Assembly (NCBI RefSeq): GCF_017939705.1
Contig: NZ_JAGKSQ010000004.1
Coordinates: 310,001 to 374,000, forward strand
Direction of reading: 5' to 3'
DNA length: 64,000 nucleotides
From: Halalkalibacter suaedae
GTDB taxonomy: Bacteria > Bacillota > Bacilli > Bacillales > Bacillaceae_D
Position numbers and translations under genes: made by a program. Shown piece after piece: positions 1,326 through 47,624 of the stretch. A model generated the notes under the pieces. It did no database searches and had not been told where the DNA came from. It was given only the letters and a program-made list of their open reading frames with translations. How positions within the stretch are numbered: position 1 is the first letter of the stretch; the number at the start of each line of letters is the position of its first letter.

Positions 1326-3800
1326 TTGTTTACATTGCGAGCCATTTCTCTTAAACTATTTCGGGCAAGTTTACCAACGACCATCGTTACGATATTAACC
1401 ATTGCTGTATCAACATGCCTCATCATGACAATGATGTTGTATTCTATTAATGCCAAAAATCATATGCAGGAACAAATCTATCAGTTATACGGGAATGTTG
1501 ATTTGACTGCAGGCTATAATCTTGAGCAAACTACATATTTAACTACGAACCAACTTGATCGAATTACGCAACTAGACGGTATAGAAGCCCTATCTAAAAT
1601 ATCATTAGCGTTTACGAGTGTGGAAGGGGTATCAGATGAAGTTTATACACTAGGTGTTGAAAATGATGATCTAGTACAAAGTCGCTATCATCACACTAAA
1701 GATTTAACTAATAACGATGTCGTTGTTTCCTCAGCACTTGCCGAGGTCTTAAACGTGCAAGTGGGAGGGCAATTACAGGTTGAAGGTAGCCTATTTACTG
1801 TACGTGAAGTTATATCATTTGAAGACATTCATTCAGAAGCACCAAAACTAATACTGTTATCCAATGATGTAGTAAAAAAGTGGATGAGTTCAACTAGTGA
1901 AGGAGAGGCCTTATTTGCTTTAATCAAAGCAGCAGACAAGGCAAATGCTACGGAACTAGCAGTGGCAATAAAAAAGCTAGACGATACATTGCGTGTAGAG
2001 ATAACAGATGAGGACCCTTTTGTCAAAATGAACATGCAATCATTGTCCATTTTTATAATGGTACTGTCTGTTATGGTCCTTTGTATTACTGGGGTGCTGC
2101 TACTTACTAATTTCCAGCTACTTCTTTATAAAATGAAGCAACAATTTATTATCATGCGATCAATTGGTGCTTCGAGTAAACAAGTGGCCAAGCTTGTACA
2201 AGCTCAGCTAACAACCATTAATGTAATAGGAGTAATAACTGGAACCATTCTCACGTTTTTTGCATTACGATATGGGCTTGACTATTTCGTTGCTTACTTA
2301 CAGTTACCAGATAGCAAGCAGACTTTCTTAATAGGACCGGCAATGATCATAGCTTTTGTTTGCTTCTTAGTTTTACAAATATTTGTATTCATTCAAGTAC
2401 AGAAGAGTTTGAAAATATTACCTATGCAATTAATGGCTGATAATGAGCGCCTTGACTTTTCCTTTTCAAAAACGAAACGATTTATGCTTAAGTTCTTAGG
2501 AGGACTCGCGTTATTTCTCATTCTCTTTAGTCGTATTATTCCCGATTCGAATGGTAAAGGGAGTCTTGTGTTAATTGTGGGAACATTGCTGCTTTGTTTA
2601 ACACTTTTAATGGTTTTCCCACTTCTATTAAGTAAATCCTTAGTGAAAATTTCACCATTAGTGCATCGTCTGTTTGGGAAAGAGGCAGGAATTGCGATAC
2701 ACAATATCATTCCCCAGGTTCGAAGTAATACGTCTGTTATTTTAAGTGTTGTCTTTCTAATGGTCATTGTCATTTTCGGTAGTTCTTTAATGAAGTCGAT
2801 TCAACAGACAGAGCAAGAATACTTAAATGAGCGATTTGAAACACCGATTATCATAACAAGTTCAGTAGGTTATGACACGGAAATTGAACCAATGGAGCTT
2901 GCAGATAGTATTGACTCGCTACCGTCAGTTGATTTTGTTTACTCAAGAGGAACCCTTGCTATAATCGAGCTTGCTACCGATCAGGGATGGGAACATTATG
3001 ATTATACAACAATCGATATTAATAGGATGTTAGCTACAGGACATGTCCAATCATTTGACGGAGATTTATCAAAATCAGTTATTATATCCGAACAAATGGC
3101 AACAACTCAAAACCTCTCTATTGGCGATCAATTACAGTTAGGATATTTTAATGAATCTGCACAAAAAACAGTAGGAATAGGTACATTTACTGTTGGAGGG
3201 ATTGAATCAAATCTCGGTCAGCATGCAGATATGTATGTTGATTGGTCCACATCCCTACCCTTGGAGAATATTGTTTTCAGTGAGTTATTTGTAGAGACTT
3301 CTAATATAGAAGAGACGATAACTTCAATTAATTCGCTAAAAGAAGAGTATCCTGAAATTCAAGTAAGCAATGTGCGAGATAGCTTGGAACAAGCCAATAC
3401 AATGTTTTATCAGCGGTGGGGGTTATTAGTAGGTGTGTTTATCATCCTTATAACAGCTACCTGTATCGGTGTGTTTCAATCACTCATTCATTATATCTAT
3501 ACGAAACGCCATGACTTTGCCATTCATCGATTAATCGGGATGACACCGAATCAATTGATCAAATTAATTGTTTCGCAAACACTTATATTTATTGTATATG
3601 GTTTGTTTGTAGGGTGCACAATAGGTATTATTTTCACTTGCTTATTGTTCCTCATTGATCCAGCAGGAAATTCATACTTGGATATTCCAATGATGTTGCT
3701 GATTAGTCTTGGATTAATTGTATTAACAGTTGCCGTATTTTTAATTCAAGGCTGGTTTGTTAGTCGGCAAAAACTTACAGAAGAAATGCAAGATCTATGA
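1326..3800 (+). CDS. FtsX-like ABC transporter permease
   Basis: This 824-residue membrane protein partners the ATPase immediately upstream; its TTG start follows that stop codon with no gap. A first membrane helix lies near residues 17-38, followed by a large extracytoplasmic region. A helix cluster follows (about 240-365), then a central membrane block, a second extracytoplasmic domain and C-terminal helices. This is the duplicated FtsX/MacB-like layout of large Gram-positive permeases. Such permeases usually convert ATP hydrolysis into movement of an extracellular domain rather than pore transport. Substrate and regulator are unknown. Confidence 0.9.
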   Translation: MFTLRAISLKLFRASLPTTIVTILTIAVSTCLIMTMMLYSINAKNHMQEQIYQLYGNVDLTAGYNLEQTTYLTTNQLDRITQLDGIEALSKISLAFTSVEGVSDEVYTLGVENDDLVQSRYHHTKDLTNNDVVVSSALAEVLNVQVGGQLQVEGSLFTVREVISFEDIHSEAPKLILLSNDVVKKWMSSTSEGEALFALIKAADKANATELAVAIKKLDDTLRVEITDEDPFVKMNMQSLSIFIMVLSVMVLCITGVLLLTNFQLLLYKMKQQFIIMRSIGASSKQVAKLVQAQLTTINVIGVITGTILTFFALRYGLDYFVAYLQLPDSKQTFLIGPAMIIAFVCFLVLQIFVFIQVQKSLKILPMQLMADNERLDFSFSKTKRFMLKFLGGLALFLILFSRIIPDSNGKGSLVLIVGTLLLCLTLLMVFPLLLSKSLVKISPLVHRLFGKEAGIAIHNIIPQVRSNTSVILSVVFLMVIVIFGSSLMKSIQQTEQEYLNERFETPIIITSSVGYDTEIEPMELADSIDSLPSVDFVYSRGTLAIIELATDQGWEHYDYTTIDINRMLATGHVQSFDGDLSKSVIISEQMATTQNLSIGDQLQLGYFNESAQKTVGIGTFTVGGIESNLGQHADMYVDWSTSLPLENIVFSELFVETSNIEETITSINSLKEEYPEIQVSNVRDSLEQANTMFYQRWGLLVGVFIILITATCIGVFQSLIHYIYTKRHDFAIHRLIGMTPNQLIKLIVSQTLIFIVYGLFVGCTIGIIFTCLLFLIDPAGNSYLDIPMMLLISLGLIVLTVAVFLIQGWFVSRQKLTEEMQDL

Positions 3801-13362: not shown

Positions 13363-13607
13363 TCTGATTCCCCCTCCCGAACAAACTAATGCTGCTCCTC
13401 CTAAAAGCTATGTGTCCTTTTCCTTTTTGTCTATCCCTTAATTTTACATTGAAATAATAAGTCTCTACAAGACATATCGTATGTTAGAAATACACCTATA
13501 ATGCTTGTCTACCTCGAGATGTACCTCTGCCAGTATTCTCCAACCTTAATTTATTTTGATTAGTGCCTCAGATGGTTGCAGATTAGTTCGTTAAGGGAAA
13601 TAATGTA

Positions 13608-13636
13608 TTAACAGTTAATTTTTTATGGGGTATAAT
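13608..13636 (+). promoter_or_regulatory. Promoter of the methyltransferase leader RNA
   Basis: TTAACA (13608-13613), a 17-bp spacer and a perfect TATAAT (13631-13636) are present. A degenerate copy of the dispersed repeat (AAGGGAAATAATGTATTAA, about 13593-13611) overlaps the -35. Transcription would start near 13643. Confidence 0.7.
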
Positions 13637-13667
13637 CATATTAATTCTTTCAAATGAGGTGTACGGC

Positions 13668-13697
13668 ATGTCTAACCGGATTGTTCGAAGTAATTAG
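13668..13697 (+). CDS. Leader peptide 1, 9 aa
   Basis: ATG at 13668 encodes MSNRIVRSN and then TAG. The ribosome site GAGGTG is 6 bp upstream, as good as that of any full gene here. The last codons lie in the 5' arm of the long leader helix, so a stalled ribosome would open that helix. Confidence 0.45.
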   Translation: MSNRIVRSN

Positions 13698-13741
13698 TTT
13701 TCGGGCTGGAAAAAACGCGTACCAGCTATAAAGGGAGGAGT

Positions 13742-13783
13742 ATGCCCTTTTTACGAAAACTAAAACTTGAACAGTGTCGGTAG
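13742..13783 (+). CDS. Leader peptide 2, 13 aa
   Basis: ATG at 13742 encodes MPFLRKLKLEQCR and then TAG. GGGAGG lies only 3 bp upstream, so initiation may be weak. The KLK triplet fits the +X+ pattern known from macrolide-dependent stalling peptides such as ErmDL. The ORF covers the 3' arm of the long leader helix. Confidence 0.35.
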   Translation: MPFLRKLKLEQCR

Positions 13784-13800
13784 TCATTATGCAACTAAAA

Positions 13801-13834
13801 GCCTAAGACGCTGAACGGTGTCTTAGGGTTTTTT
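13801..13834 (+). terminator. Terminator in front of the methyltransferase gene
   Basis: CCTAAGAC pairs with GTGTCTTAGG across an 8-nt loop and is followed by six T residues. It lies about 20 bp before the gene start, so read-through of this hairpin must be needed for expression from the leader promoter. Confidence 0.85.
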
Positions 13835-13855
13835 ACATTTGAAAGGTGGATGAAA

Positions 13856-14605
13856 ATGATAAATGAAATGGATTATAAAAGCTTTTATGAAAAAGTTGGC
13901 AAAACGAATGGTTGGGATTTTAGTAAGTTAAAGGTTAGATTAGAAGGAGCATTATGGGATTTCAATGAGGAAATCAAGAATAAATCAAGAACCTCAGACA
14001 TTCTTCTGGACATCGGAACAGGTGGTGGAGAAAATCTCTTAACGATTGCTTCTTCGTTCCTATTCTTAAGCGGTATTGATTTATCCTATGAAATGATTGA
14101 ATCAGCACAAACAAATTTGAAAAGAGCTGGTATATCAAATGTTCGTTTCTCTCAAATGTCTTCTGACAAATTAGAATTTCCTGCGGGATTTTTTGATGTG
14201 GTCACTTGCCGTCACGCACCATTTAGTTCAATGGAGGTGGCTAAGGTGTTGAAGAAGGGCGGGTACTTTTTAACTCAACAAGTCGGTGAAAGGGATAAAG
14301 TAAATCTAAAAAGAGCATTTAAGCGAGGACAAGTTTCACAAAAGAATGAGGCATTATTAGCAAGATATGTCAAAGAGTTAGAAGAATTGAGTTTTTCTAA
14401 AGTTCAACACTTTGAATACGATGCTACTGAGTATTACCAAAGAACAGAAGACCTCATCTTCCTACTAAAGCATGCACCGATCATTCCGAATTTTGGTGAG
14501 GAAGTTAATGATTTTGAACTGTTGGCTGATTTCATAAAAGAGAATAGCACTGAAAAAGGGATTCGAACCAATTCGAATCGGTTTCTGATAATAGCTAGGA
14601 AGTAG
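13856..14605 (+). CDS. Class I SAM-dependent methyltransferase
   Basis: This is a roughly 249-residue methyltransferase with the SAM-binding motif I (ILLDIGTGGGENLL, near residue 43). GIDLSYEMIESA, the acidic post-I strand (FFDVVTCRHAPF) and VLKKGGYFLTQQV follow. ATG at 13856 is 6 bp after AAAGGTGG; the ATG at 13850 abuts that site and is less likely. The methyl acceptor is unknown. The leader-peptide attenuator upstream suggests a ribosome-related or antibiotic-resistance role, which is inference from regulation only. Confidence 0.87.
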   Translation: MINEMDYKSFYEKVGKTNGWDFSKLKVRLEGALWDFNEEIKNKSRTSDILLDIGTGGGENLLTIASSFLFLSGIDLSYEMIESAQTNLKRAGISNVRFSQMSSDKLEFPAGFFDVVTCRHAPFSSMEVAKVLKKGGYFLTQQVGERDKVNLKRAFKRGQVSQKNEALLARYVKELEELSFSKVQHFEYDATEYYQRTEDLIFLLKHAPIIPNFGEEVNDFELLADFIKENSTEKGIRTNSNRFLIIARK

Positions 14606-14660: not shown

Positions 14661-15191
14661 ATGCAAATATATCCTTACTGTCCACTGAAAACCAGAACTA
14701 TTGAAGTAGGTGGACTTACAAAAGTGCAGCTTATTCAGAAGTTGGAACGAAACTTCATTATGATGAATGAGTATGGAAAGAGACTACTATCGGATGAACG
14801 TTTCAAGATTTCTAACGTGAAATATAATCTTGAGACTGTAGAATTAACCGTTAGAAACCTTGGCCTCCCTAATGGAGGGACAACTTCTCATATTTTTAAA
14901 AGAGCTAGGGAGCTTGGTTTAGTGTTGTGCCCGCTTGAGCTAGGTCCCTATTTAAGACTAGAATATCGGGATCAGACTGAAGGTGGTCAAGGGAATTCTG
15001 TGCAAAATCAAGCCCCAGTAGGCTCTGTTACAATTGCATCTGAAATCTTAAGTGCAAATGATGAATTCCCGAAAGGATTTTATCTTAGACGTTTAAGTGA
15101 TGGGTTGTGGTTGCGTGGTTATGTTGCTGACGATTTACATATTTGGGATCCAGGTGATCACTTTATTTTTTGTAAAGCGGTTGGAGTTTAG
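14661..15191 (+). CDS. Conserved hypothetical protein, 176 aa
   Basis: This is a soluble protein with GAGGTGAT 8-10 bp before the ATG. It contains VGGLTKVQLIQKLE, DERFKISNVKYNLETVELTV, LELGPYLRLEYRDQ, GSVTIASEILS and FPKGFYLRRLSDGLWLRGY. I recall similar proteins in other Bacillaceae annotated only as hypothetical. The many paired aromatic and charged motifs suggest a compact folded enzyme-like or binding protein, but no function can be assigned. It lies 55 bp after the methyltransferase and may be co-transcribed with it. Confidence 0.75.
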   Translation: MQIYPYCPLKTRTIEVGGLTKVQLIQKLERNFIMMNEYGKRLLSDERFKISNVKYNLETVELTVRNLGLPNGGTTSHIFKRARELGLVLCPLELGPYLRLEYRDQTEGGQGNSVQNQAPVGSVTIASEILSANDEFPKGFYLRRLSDGLWLRGYVADDLHIWDPGDHFIFCKAVGV

Positions 15192-20535: not shown

Positions 20536-20658
20536 TTTATCTAAAAAAGTGGAAAAATGTTTTTTTCTTTATTTTTTATAAGGAAATTTATGTATTAATT
20601 GGAAGCGGAATTGTTATAGTTAATGTATAATTAGATTGTAATTCAAAGTGAAATCTTG

Positions 20659-20760
20659 GTGTGTATAACTGGCGTACGTGGCAAACCACGGGGGAGTACA
20701 TGCTTATATAGTCGCACGCCTGGGCAAAGTATTTGGATATTCCAAATACTTTTTATTATT
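20659..20760 (+). promoter_or_regulatory. ZTP (pfl) riboswitch with intrinsic terminator
   Basis: The aptamer shows TGTATAACTGGCG, the hairpin ACGTGGCAAACCACG with GGGGGAG after it, a P1 closure (TGTA with TACA) and CACGCCTGGGCAAAG. The GGCG and CGCC elements can form the conserved pseudoknot. This is the pattern of the ZTP/pfl class. A terminator follows at once: AAGTATTTGGA pairs with TCCAAATACTT, then a T-rich tail. High ZTP, a sign of 10-formyl-THF shortage, would be expected to prevent termination and turn on the DJ-1/PfpI gene. Confidence 0.82.
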
Positions 20761-47349: not shown

Positions 47350-47624
47350 ATTGAGAGCAATGAAGAAGAAGAGTAAACGTTAAGAACGCTTTAGAGAGCT
47401 GATGGTTGGTGAAAATCAGTGCAGGACTAATGTTGAATGGGCTTCTGAGCTACTTGACTGAATTAATAGTAGGTTGAGCGGAACGTCTTACCGTTAAAGG
47501 AGACTAAGTATCGAAACAACGACTGATGTTTCTGTACGGCTAAGTGCGTTTGCTTTTGTAAACGAATTAAGGTGGCACCACGGGTTACTCGTCCTTTTTT
47601 TTTGGGACGGGTAACCCTTTTTGT
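47350..47624 (+). promoter_or_regulatory. Tryptophan-specific T-box leader
   Basis: The stem I region contains the specifier loop GTTGAATGGGCTTC, where TGG (47438-47440) is the Trp codon. The T-box sequence AAGGTGGCACCACGGG lies at 47569-47584. The terminator GGGTTACTCGTCC pairs with GGGACGGGTAACCC, followed by T residues. Uncharged tRNA-Trp would bind, form the antiterminator and raise trpS expression. Confidence 0.95.

Follow-up and report, generated by a model that had tools for sequence, protein, structure and literature searches.

What controls the gene at positions 13856–14605 of the window studied here, a 64,000-nt stretch of the 4.32-Mb genome of Halalkalibacter suaedae (contig NZ_JAGKSQ010000004.1, positions 310,001 to 374,000)? 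The gene encodes a class I S-adenosylmethionine-dependent methyltransferase, and it is preceded by a leader RNA that carries a short upstream open reading frame (uORF), a structured core, an intrinsic terminator, and a strand that pairs with the gene's ribosome site. We conclude that this leader is probably a ribosome-sensing attenuator RNA that acts at two levels and whose conserved core has a further role. It would most probably be induced by a translation-inhibiting antibiotic or a class of such antibiotics. Positions refer to the window and, unless another locus is named, to its + strand.

The leader follows a sigma-A-type promoter, TTAACA-17-TATAAT (13608–13636), with 11 of 12 consensus matches. 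This promoter, a nine-codon open reading frame (ORF) with a good ribosome site, and a terminator ahead of the gene had all been reported in a preliminary description of this DNA, and all three are present. Promoter-like sites are not more frequent than chance in our scan (three, against a mean of 3.8 in shuffles), and support for the promoter therefore comes from its quality and its conserved position: of the 138 leaders catalogued below, 134 have a TANNNT box no more than 16 nt ahead of the element, compared with 571 of 2760 random places. The RNA 5′ end predicted from the promoter would fall at about 13643 and would thus place the anti-Shine–Dalgarno (anti-SD) arm CTTTCAAATG (13647–13656) close to the start of the transcript. 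This arm pairs with 13836–13845, within the ribosome site of the methyltransferase gene (13836–13849), which it sequesters both in the fold and according to the swap test described below. The uORF, ORF1 (13668–13697), encodes MSNRIVRSN (ATG TCT AAC CGG ATT GTT CGA AGT AAT TAG), with a GAGGTG ribosome site immediately upstream. As the translation start of the methyltransferase, 13856 is more likely than the alternative at 13850, because most orthologs begin with MNE or similar (the second Met) and the spacing from the ribosome site is better.

The leader (13642–13866) folds with −73.2 kcal/mol, an energy that none of 200 shuffles equaled (z −6.35). In the minimum-energy fold, ORF1 is paired with 13760–13787. 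Codons 6–8 of the uORF form the 5′ arm of helix P0 (13683–13691, paired with 13765–13772), which would serve as an anti-antiterminator. Helix P1, whose 5′ arm is GUUUUCG (13697–13703, paired with 13754–13760), closes a three-way junction that encloses two hairpins. Hairpin HP2 (13704–13727) has the stem 13704–13709/13722–13727 and the conserved strand AAAAAACGCGTA at 13710–13721; hairpin HP3 (13730–13750) has the stem 13730–13735/13745–13750 and the loop AGGAGTATG at 13736–13744. Farther downstream, the intrinsic terminator (13802–13834) consists of the stem 13802–13812/13817–13827 followed by T's, and 10.8 of its 11 pairs are expected in the free leader. Our scan found three terminator-like sites (0.7 expected), and both others represent a single inverted repeat within the gene, detected on both strands.

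Is the uORF conserved as codons? We examined a catalogue of 138 leaders, made up of 49 aligned members plus 29 loci and 60 further hits that both stem from the order of genome G683; the 60 hits come from the top of the match list, with some skipped, and are not a random sample, the remaining hits being unclassified. Under one fixed filter, a uORF with a ribosome site was present in 132 of the 138 leaders, with an ATG start in 130 and a length of exactly nine codons in 122. Among the nine-codon uORFs, codon 4 is Arg in 107 (CGT 77, CGA 15, CGC 12, CGG 3), codon 6 is Val in 112, and codon 7 is Arg in 104; this second Arg can be replaced, as in the variants RTVARN and RTVTRN. Of the 132 uORFs, 82 have Ser as the penultimate residue and 30 have Gly. 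Phenicols and oxazolidinones stall ribosomes best after Ala, Ser, or Thr at the penultimate position, which provides at most a lead. Some groups depart from the usual length: the uORF before major facilitator superfamily (MFS) genes is shorter by one codon with its frame kept, and that of the L040–L043 group is longer (MLFYYGRGIFHSG and similar). Six leaders failed the filter. Two of them, L133 and L079, do carry this kind of uORF, with upstream matches that the filter does not cover. The uORF of L044 stops early, that of L083 begins with ATA instead of a start codon, and those of L147 and L173 no longer end in a stop codon. L064 was counted in an overlapping frame, its own start being TTG. 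Leaders of ATP-binding cassette (ABC) genes such as L063 and L065 also contain a second nine-codon frame (MNVLPYRSK, MDVFPYRSK) that overlaps the uORF, starts four bases upstream of it, and has poor ribosome-site spacing.

The preliminary description had included a second leader peptide, a 13-codon ORF with a Lys-Leu-Lys triplet that was taken as a macrolide stalling motif. This ORF2, MPFLRKLKLEQCR, does exist at 13742–13783, and in this sequence it lies opposite ORF1 in the long helix, as had been stated; we judge it a chance frame and list it since it was named there. Its ATG sits in the apical loop of a conserved hairpin, HP3. The corresponding position could be scored in 126 leaders: it is CTG in 85, and ATG, GTG, or TTG in 21, leaving 105 with no start codon. 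The two closest relatives, L008 and L009, whose proteins are 80 and 77% identical to that of the window, both have CTG. Frames with K/R-x-K/R occur at this place in only 6 of the 126 leaders, the window counted in (L039, L048, L049, L051, and L060, of the window's own kind, and L087, before an MFS gene), and Lys and Arg come easily there because the pairing strand is rich in AAA and CGA. The codons of ORF2 are thus lost while the RNA pairs are kept, which is the pattern that the preliminary description itself had set against its proposal. We rejected ORF2 as a second leader peptide because it is not conserved, and the reading of its triplet as a stalling motif falls with it.

Covariation analysis of the leader in homologous loci had been suggested as a check, and the helices do covary. 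We tested 47 distinct rows of an alignment of 49 members, A4, which was fitted to the structural model and leans towards it. Across P0, P1, HP2, and HP3, 86.4% of the cells are paired. Double changes occur at 13 of the 26 pairs (8.8 in shuffles, with 7 of 500 reaching 13) and in 57 cells, a number that none of 500 shuffles reached (mean 17.2, sd 3.2); sliding the partners by 1–3 columns left at most 17 such cells. HP2 is paired in 98.6% of its cells and has double changes at four of six pairs. HP3 is paired in 91.1%; GT.TG is common among its loop letters, and many of the 49 members have a T run after it. Pairing is weaker in P0 and P1, at 76–85% (P0, 79.6%): three P0 pairs are unpaired in 16–20 of the 47 rows, and P1 has double changes at four of its seven pairs.

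We also used an alignment-free swap test, in which the duplex energy of a leader's own arms is compared with that of arms swapped between leaders. Of the 135 leaders whose gene could be classified, the 133 that carry a CGCGT-type motif entered the test, and dereplication left 85 of them; in a stratified version, arms were exchanged only within gene type and order. Own arms were strongly favored for the uORF plus P1 against the 3′ arm (z −16.2, 0 of 2000; stratified z −13.3, 0 of 3000), for the uORF alone against the 3′ arm (stratified z −7.4, 0 of 3000), and for the anti-SD arm against the ribosome site (z −11.5, 0 of 2000; stratified z −9.4, 0 of 3000). With DNA from within the gene as the partner, the controls were z −2.2 (39 of 2000; stratified −1.2, 353 of 3000) for the uORF-plus-P1 arm and z −0.3 (stratified 0.04) for the anti-SD arm. 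Compensation can be followed in single leaders: in L056, TTTGAAATGA/TCATTTCAAA replaces CTTTCAAATG/CATTTGAAAG, and in L057/L058, CTTTCAGA/TCTGAAAG occupies the anti-SD arm and the ribosome site.

Within the core, every base of the ACGCGT strand is identical in at least 132 of the 133 leaders that could be placed out of 138, a figure favored by the CGCGT-like pattern used to place them, and the stem beside this strand varies with compensation. Three of the 138 leaders (L083, L175, and L176) contained no CGCGT-type motif within 160 nt. In L057/L087 and L058, which precede MFS genes, HP2 contains an additional long stem-loop 5′ of the conserved AAAAACGCGTA strand, which itself is unchanged. A small CGAA...UUCG hairpin predicted by RNAalifold from the first 13 leaders was omitted from the second model because it competes with P1 and P0. 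A loop–loop pairing between HP2 and HP3 was searched for by eye and not found.

An attenuator that terminates transcription also needs an alternative to its terminator, and here the preliminary description had drawn no convincing antiterminator. We found that CAGTGTC at 13772–13778 can pair with the 5′ half of the terminator at 13807–13813, extended by 13781–13783/13803–13805; this pairing of 13772–13783 with 13803–13813 and the terminator state are mutually exclusive. The antiterminator 5′ arm (13772–13783) overlaps the 3′ arm of the uORF helix. In computed folds of the nascent RNA up to 13816, the antiterminator is absent from the free RNA because P0 holds the 13772–13778 arm, and it forms when 13672–13704 is covered as it would be by a ribosome. 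The swap test gave this pairing moderate support: z −3.65 (1 of 5000) for the 18 leaders whose terminator reaches −9 kcal/mol or better and lies within 40 nt of the gene, and z −2.9 (9 of 5000) for the full set of 28 leaders with a terminator-like site.

The leader is not confined to this locus. A first protein scan of genome contigs returned five relatives, all distant. A protein search of 149 related genomes then yielded 30 loci including the window's own (L007–L036), and the leader stands upstream of the gene in 13 of them, often nearly letter for letter and recognizable even at ∼40% protein identity. Because orthologs of 53–64% identity (L011, L014–L016, L019, L021–L027) have no such leader visible upstream, the leader seems, on this comparison, to come and go independently of the gene. 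A covariance model built from those 13 leaders, R1, matched 8 of 41 genomes of the window's family and 21 of 397 of its order. The second, later model, R2, matched 28 of 398 genomes of its class, 4 of 299 of its phylum (the window's own genome plus three others from its class), and 148 of 392 in the order of G683, where the matches are spread over 19 of 49 genera. All these counts are lower bounds under strict filters; those for the family, order, class, and phylum include the window's own genome. Among plasmids, one record carries the leader, a 1.4-Mb replicon of Niallia taxi (Bacilli, Bacillales), and phages and viral contigs gave no match to the window's leader by blastn or to one exact pattern. 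The window's leader matched no Rfam 15 family at the gathering threshold (two sub-threshold chance matches had E 1.6 and 7.1). In 20 related loci (E ≤ 0.5), the sole match was sub-threshold (24.7 bits against a gathering threshold of 128) and falls upstream of the L049 leader. The leader is a conserved RNA family outside the Rfam 15 models. A remnant was seen at L059 (G083; match 5.2e-4), with a promoter-like box, a uORF start followed at once by a stop, no core, and other sequence thereafter; no later count includes it. L087 marks the same place as L057 and was used instead.

Which genes does the leader precede? Compared with three reference proteins, the genes downstream of the 138 leaders comprise 93 methyltransferases, 39 ABC half-transporters, and 3 MFS transporters, with none of these in three cases. 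Among these three, the leader L044 has decayed, no long gene follows L079 within the available stretch, and the gene after L162 encodes an esterase-type alpha/beta hydrolase, a possible fourth type of target. This hydrolase gene (2657–3394, + strand of L184) is followed by another methyltransferase-like ORF, in a single case. The ABC protein has ABC_membrane and ABC_tran domains (one example, of 573 residues), and two MFS proteins match MFS_1; their NCBIfam relatives include drug exporters (tetracycline, multidrug), all below the curated cut-offs. Genome G1250 carries the leader before an ABC gene (L104) and also before a methyltransferase gene (L170), and the identical peptide MSFRIVRSN is found before eight methyltransferase and nine ABC genes. 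Since the same leader precedes methyltransferase, ABC exporter, and MFS transporter genes, the signal is probably shared, and these gene types would fit resistance to the inducer. At the level of sequence comparison, then, we regard the RNA family, its conserved uORF, its helices, and its set of genes as established.

We propose that, in the resting state, the uORF would be translated fast or not at all, and its 3′ half would pair with 13765–13783 (P0/P1, the anti-antiterminator), letting the terminator form. In those RNAs that are read through, 13647–13656 would pair with the gene's ribosome site and block translation. In the induced state, an inhibitor-bound ribosome held on the nine-codon uORF would cover the 5′ arm of P0; the released arm would then pair with the 5′ half of the terminator as the antiterminator, and transcription would continue. 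A ribosome near the uORF start would also release the ribosome site of the gene. The three-way-junction core, directly 3′ of the uORF stop, could support the stall, pause the polymerase, or bind a ligand. Because its conserved letters lie where a ribosome at the uORF stop would meet the RNA, they may contact the ribosome, slow the polymerase, or bind a ligand. We infer the stalling, the induction, the inducer, and the resistance function of this leader system. As to the broader claim of the preliminary description, that an attenuator with a translated leader makes expression conditional, it is strengthened: the ORF1 codons are conserved, the helices covary, an antiterminator exists, and exporter genes share the leader.

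Several observations weigh against this account. The K/R-x-K/R arrest motif is absent from 115 of the 132 uORFs, including the window's ORF1. In each of the three equilibrium computations on the complete leader, the terminator prevails, and placing a ribosome on the uORF leaves most of the anti-SD helix intact (8.0–10.8 expected pairs, compared with 10.75 in the free RNA). The switch would therefore have to be kinetic, its outcome decided during transcription, as is described for tlrB and vmlR in the portions of the literature cited here (PMC6851288, PMC9226507). Only 13 of 60 methyltransferase leaders yielded a terminator-like hairpin, as did 12 of 22 ABC and 3 of 3 MFS leaders, and several of these hairpins are weak; many relatives may therefore control translation only. 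No terminator was found in the L040–L043 group (L040 and L043 tested), whose members keep little of P0 while retaining the core and the anti-SD arm. The top-scoring models for the ABC protein are exporters of peptides, lipids, and type I secretion substrates, not drug exporters. Finally, the conservation of the core loops exceeds what an attenuation mechanism needs.

This last point raises the possibility that the core is a riboswitch aptamer for a drug or metabolite and that the uORF merely tunes the response. An aptamer would explain why the ACGCGU strand and the GU.UG loop are conserved over two orders while the adjacent stem varies, and the extra stem inserted in L057/L058 with the conserved strand kept is typical of internal-loop ligand sites. 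However, a ligand-stabilized core would be expected to strengthen P1/P0 and hence to favor termination, the opposite of drug-induced exporter expression, and the uORF is conserved as codons, by the filter in 132 of 138 leaders; we therefore consider an aptamer unlikely. The conserved loop could also be bound as a mimic of an rRNA target by the methyltransferase, or by another RNA-binding protein, which would repress its own mRNA. Such autoregulation would suit a loop that adjoins the gene of an enzyme that may modify RNA, but the core also precedes ABC and MFS genes, whose products are unlikely to bind RNA, and even with some other trans-acting protein still conceivable we rate this explanation as very improbable. 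Much the same holds for a core that acts in processive antitermination, for which put RNA offers a comparison, or as a polymerase-pause element, with the uORF secondary. The two adjacent hairpins with conserved loops ahead of a terminator, and the T run that follows HP3 in many members, are what such an element might look like; the conserved uORF and the retention of the core in 47 of 60 methyltransferase leaders with no terminator found make it, too, a very poor prospect.

Two further explanations concern the peptide rather than the core. The frequency of Arg at codons 4 and 7 (107 and 104 of 122) could be read as amino-acid attenuation, in which ribosomes awaiting charged tRNA(Arg) at these codons turn the genes on. 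The downstream genes have no known tie to arginine, though, attenuation of this kind would be expected to use more than two Arg codons, and the second of the two is replaced in RTVARN and RTVTRN; we give this idea hardly any weight. The arrangement first suggested for this locus, two leader peptides as in erm leaders with a macrolide stall site in the second, has in its favor that both ORFs exist in the window and that a start with K/R-x-K/R recurs at the place in the six leaders named above. With the start codon missing from 105 of 126 leaders, and likewise from the two closest relatives, it has the slightest chance of all. We thus return to the ribosome-sensing attenuator with a conserved uORF as the preferred account, and set it beside systems already described.

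In erm leaders, drug-stalled translation of the leader unmasks the ribosome site of a methyltransferase gene. Here, in contrast, the enzyme has no Erm-type Pfam match at E ≤ 0.001, and a terminator and antiterminator are present. The vmlR leader of Bacillus subtilis, which governs an ABC-F resistance gene, is closer in layout: as far as the excerpt of that work describes it, a Met-Ile-Asn tripeptide uORF lies in an anti-antiterminator and is combined with an antiterminator, a terminator, and control of the ribosome site (PMC9226507). The present leader likewise has its uORF in the anti-antiterminator, an exclusive antiterminator, a terminator, and ribosome-site control, so that attenuation of transcription and translation would be joined. 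Unlike the vmlR tripeptide, its uORF is mostly nine codons long and encodes a conserved peptide; its three-way-junction core has no counterpart in what that excerpt shows (PMC9226507), and the leader stands before at least three unrelated gene types. In the B. subtilis tlrB/yxjB (RlmA-II) leader, the encoded peptide, MIIQFIRYR, has nine residues and ends in the arrest motif RYR; this leader also has a terminator and a ribosome-site hairpin (PMC6851288, in part). It thus shares a nine-residue peptide before a methyltransferase gene, a terminator, and ribosome-site sequestration with the window, but the C-terminal RYR of tlrB contrasts with RIVRSN here, the uORF consensus lacks K/R-x-K/R (the triplet is present in 17 of 132), and the enzyme here misses the RlmA-I model. 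The bmrB leader ORF of the bmrCD multidrug ABC transporter, also from B. subtilis, has 53 residues and itself carries the terminator, and its attenuation is induced by the 50S drugs lincomycin, erythromycin, and chloramphenicol, according to the cited excerpt (PMC4191407). Ribosome-mediated attenuation before an ABC exporter, proposed here, would be common to both, whereas the present uORF is short, mostly of nine codons. Finally, the uORFC-6-1 motif of Bacillales combines a conserved uORF with structured RNA, as the present element does; in the part of its description cited, it lies mainly before the ribosome-rescue gene hflX and encodes an Arg-Leu-Arg peptide, neither of which applies here (PMC8632094).

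Measured against vmlR/tlrB-type attenuators, the sequences contain a short leader ORF with a ribosome site (in the window and in the 132 filtered leaders), a predicted anti-antiterminator over the uORF with an exclusive antiterminator and a terminator (in the window, many relatives being without the terminator), and a target-gene ribosome site that is sequestered according to the folds and swap tests. Judged by its anatomy, the element resembles known attenuators; what sets it apart is the peptide, the conserved core, and the range of unrelated genes that it precedes. No description of it was recognized in the open-access literature at the level of titles and abstracts, supplementary motif lists being beyond reach, and the peptide string RIVRSN gave no match in that literature.

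What the methyltransferase itself modifies bears on the proposed resistance function. The protein (METHYLTRANSFERASE) has a general Methyltransf_25/31/11 domain (Methyltransf_25, E 6.2e-15), and the six Pfam families that match at E ≤ 0.001 are all general Methyltransf or Ubie models. We rejected membership in Erm, since no Erm/KsgA-type Pfam model, which we take to be RrnaAD, matched at this threshold. Membership in RlmA-I, the G745 enzyme, was likewise rejected (NCBIfam PRK11088, 34.4 bits against a cut-off of 303); this test covers the RlmA-I model alone, no separate RlmA-II model being among the models listed. Thirty columns are invariant across 37 methyltransferase sequences. An AlphaFold2 model (pLDDT 90.3) has YcgJ as its closest chain among the matches listed (Z 21.4, rmsd 4.2, 200 aligned); SpnL, TleD, and TmtA/GtmA are likewise close, and an RlmA-I chain among the same matches gave Z 18.3 and rmsd 3.0 over 211 aligned. 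The modeled fold is thus about equally close to small-molecule and RNA methyltransferases, and a leader shared with exporters would be compatible with a ribosome-methylating and a drug-methylating enzyme alike. A distant relative (32% identity over 80%) is found on Streptomyces angustmyceticus plasmid p1 (L187, 7851–8633, +), where it adjoins genes of 7-deazaguanine biosynthesis (QueE, folE, and others) in what is perhaps a nucleoside-antibiotic cluster. In the window, a 176-aa ORF without a Pfam or NCBIfam match at E ≤ 0.001 directly follows the methyltransferase gene (14661–15191, +). Two other regulatory RNAs are present in the window, a ZMP/ZTP riboswitch at 20655–20732 (+; RF01750, 52.6 bits) and a T-box leader at 47351–47599 (+; RF00230, 147 bits).

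We also consider, tentatively, a hybrid sensor in which the leader peptide reports on the ribosome while the core, with its ACGCGU strand, binds the drug or contacts the stalled ribosome. This is doubtful, but if true it would give a specificity beyond what a nine-residue peptide alone could provide, it would constitute a new class of regulatory RNA common to methyltransferase, ABC, MFS, and perhaps esterase genes, and it would mark, in these bacteria, a set of factors for resistance to a single class of antibiotics. As an attenuator family, found in 148 of 392 genomes of one order and before unrelated gene types, the leader may serve as a label for resistance genes against a drug yet to be named, a useful label because both the methyltransferase and the ABC protein fall short of the curated functional models. 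The inducer, once identified, would be a clue to what several gene families act on. The core beside the uORF stop would, moreover, allow the role of structured RNA in peptide-based drug sensing to be tested.

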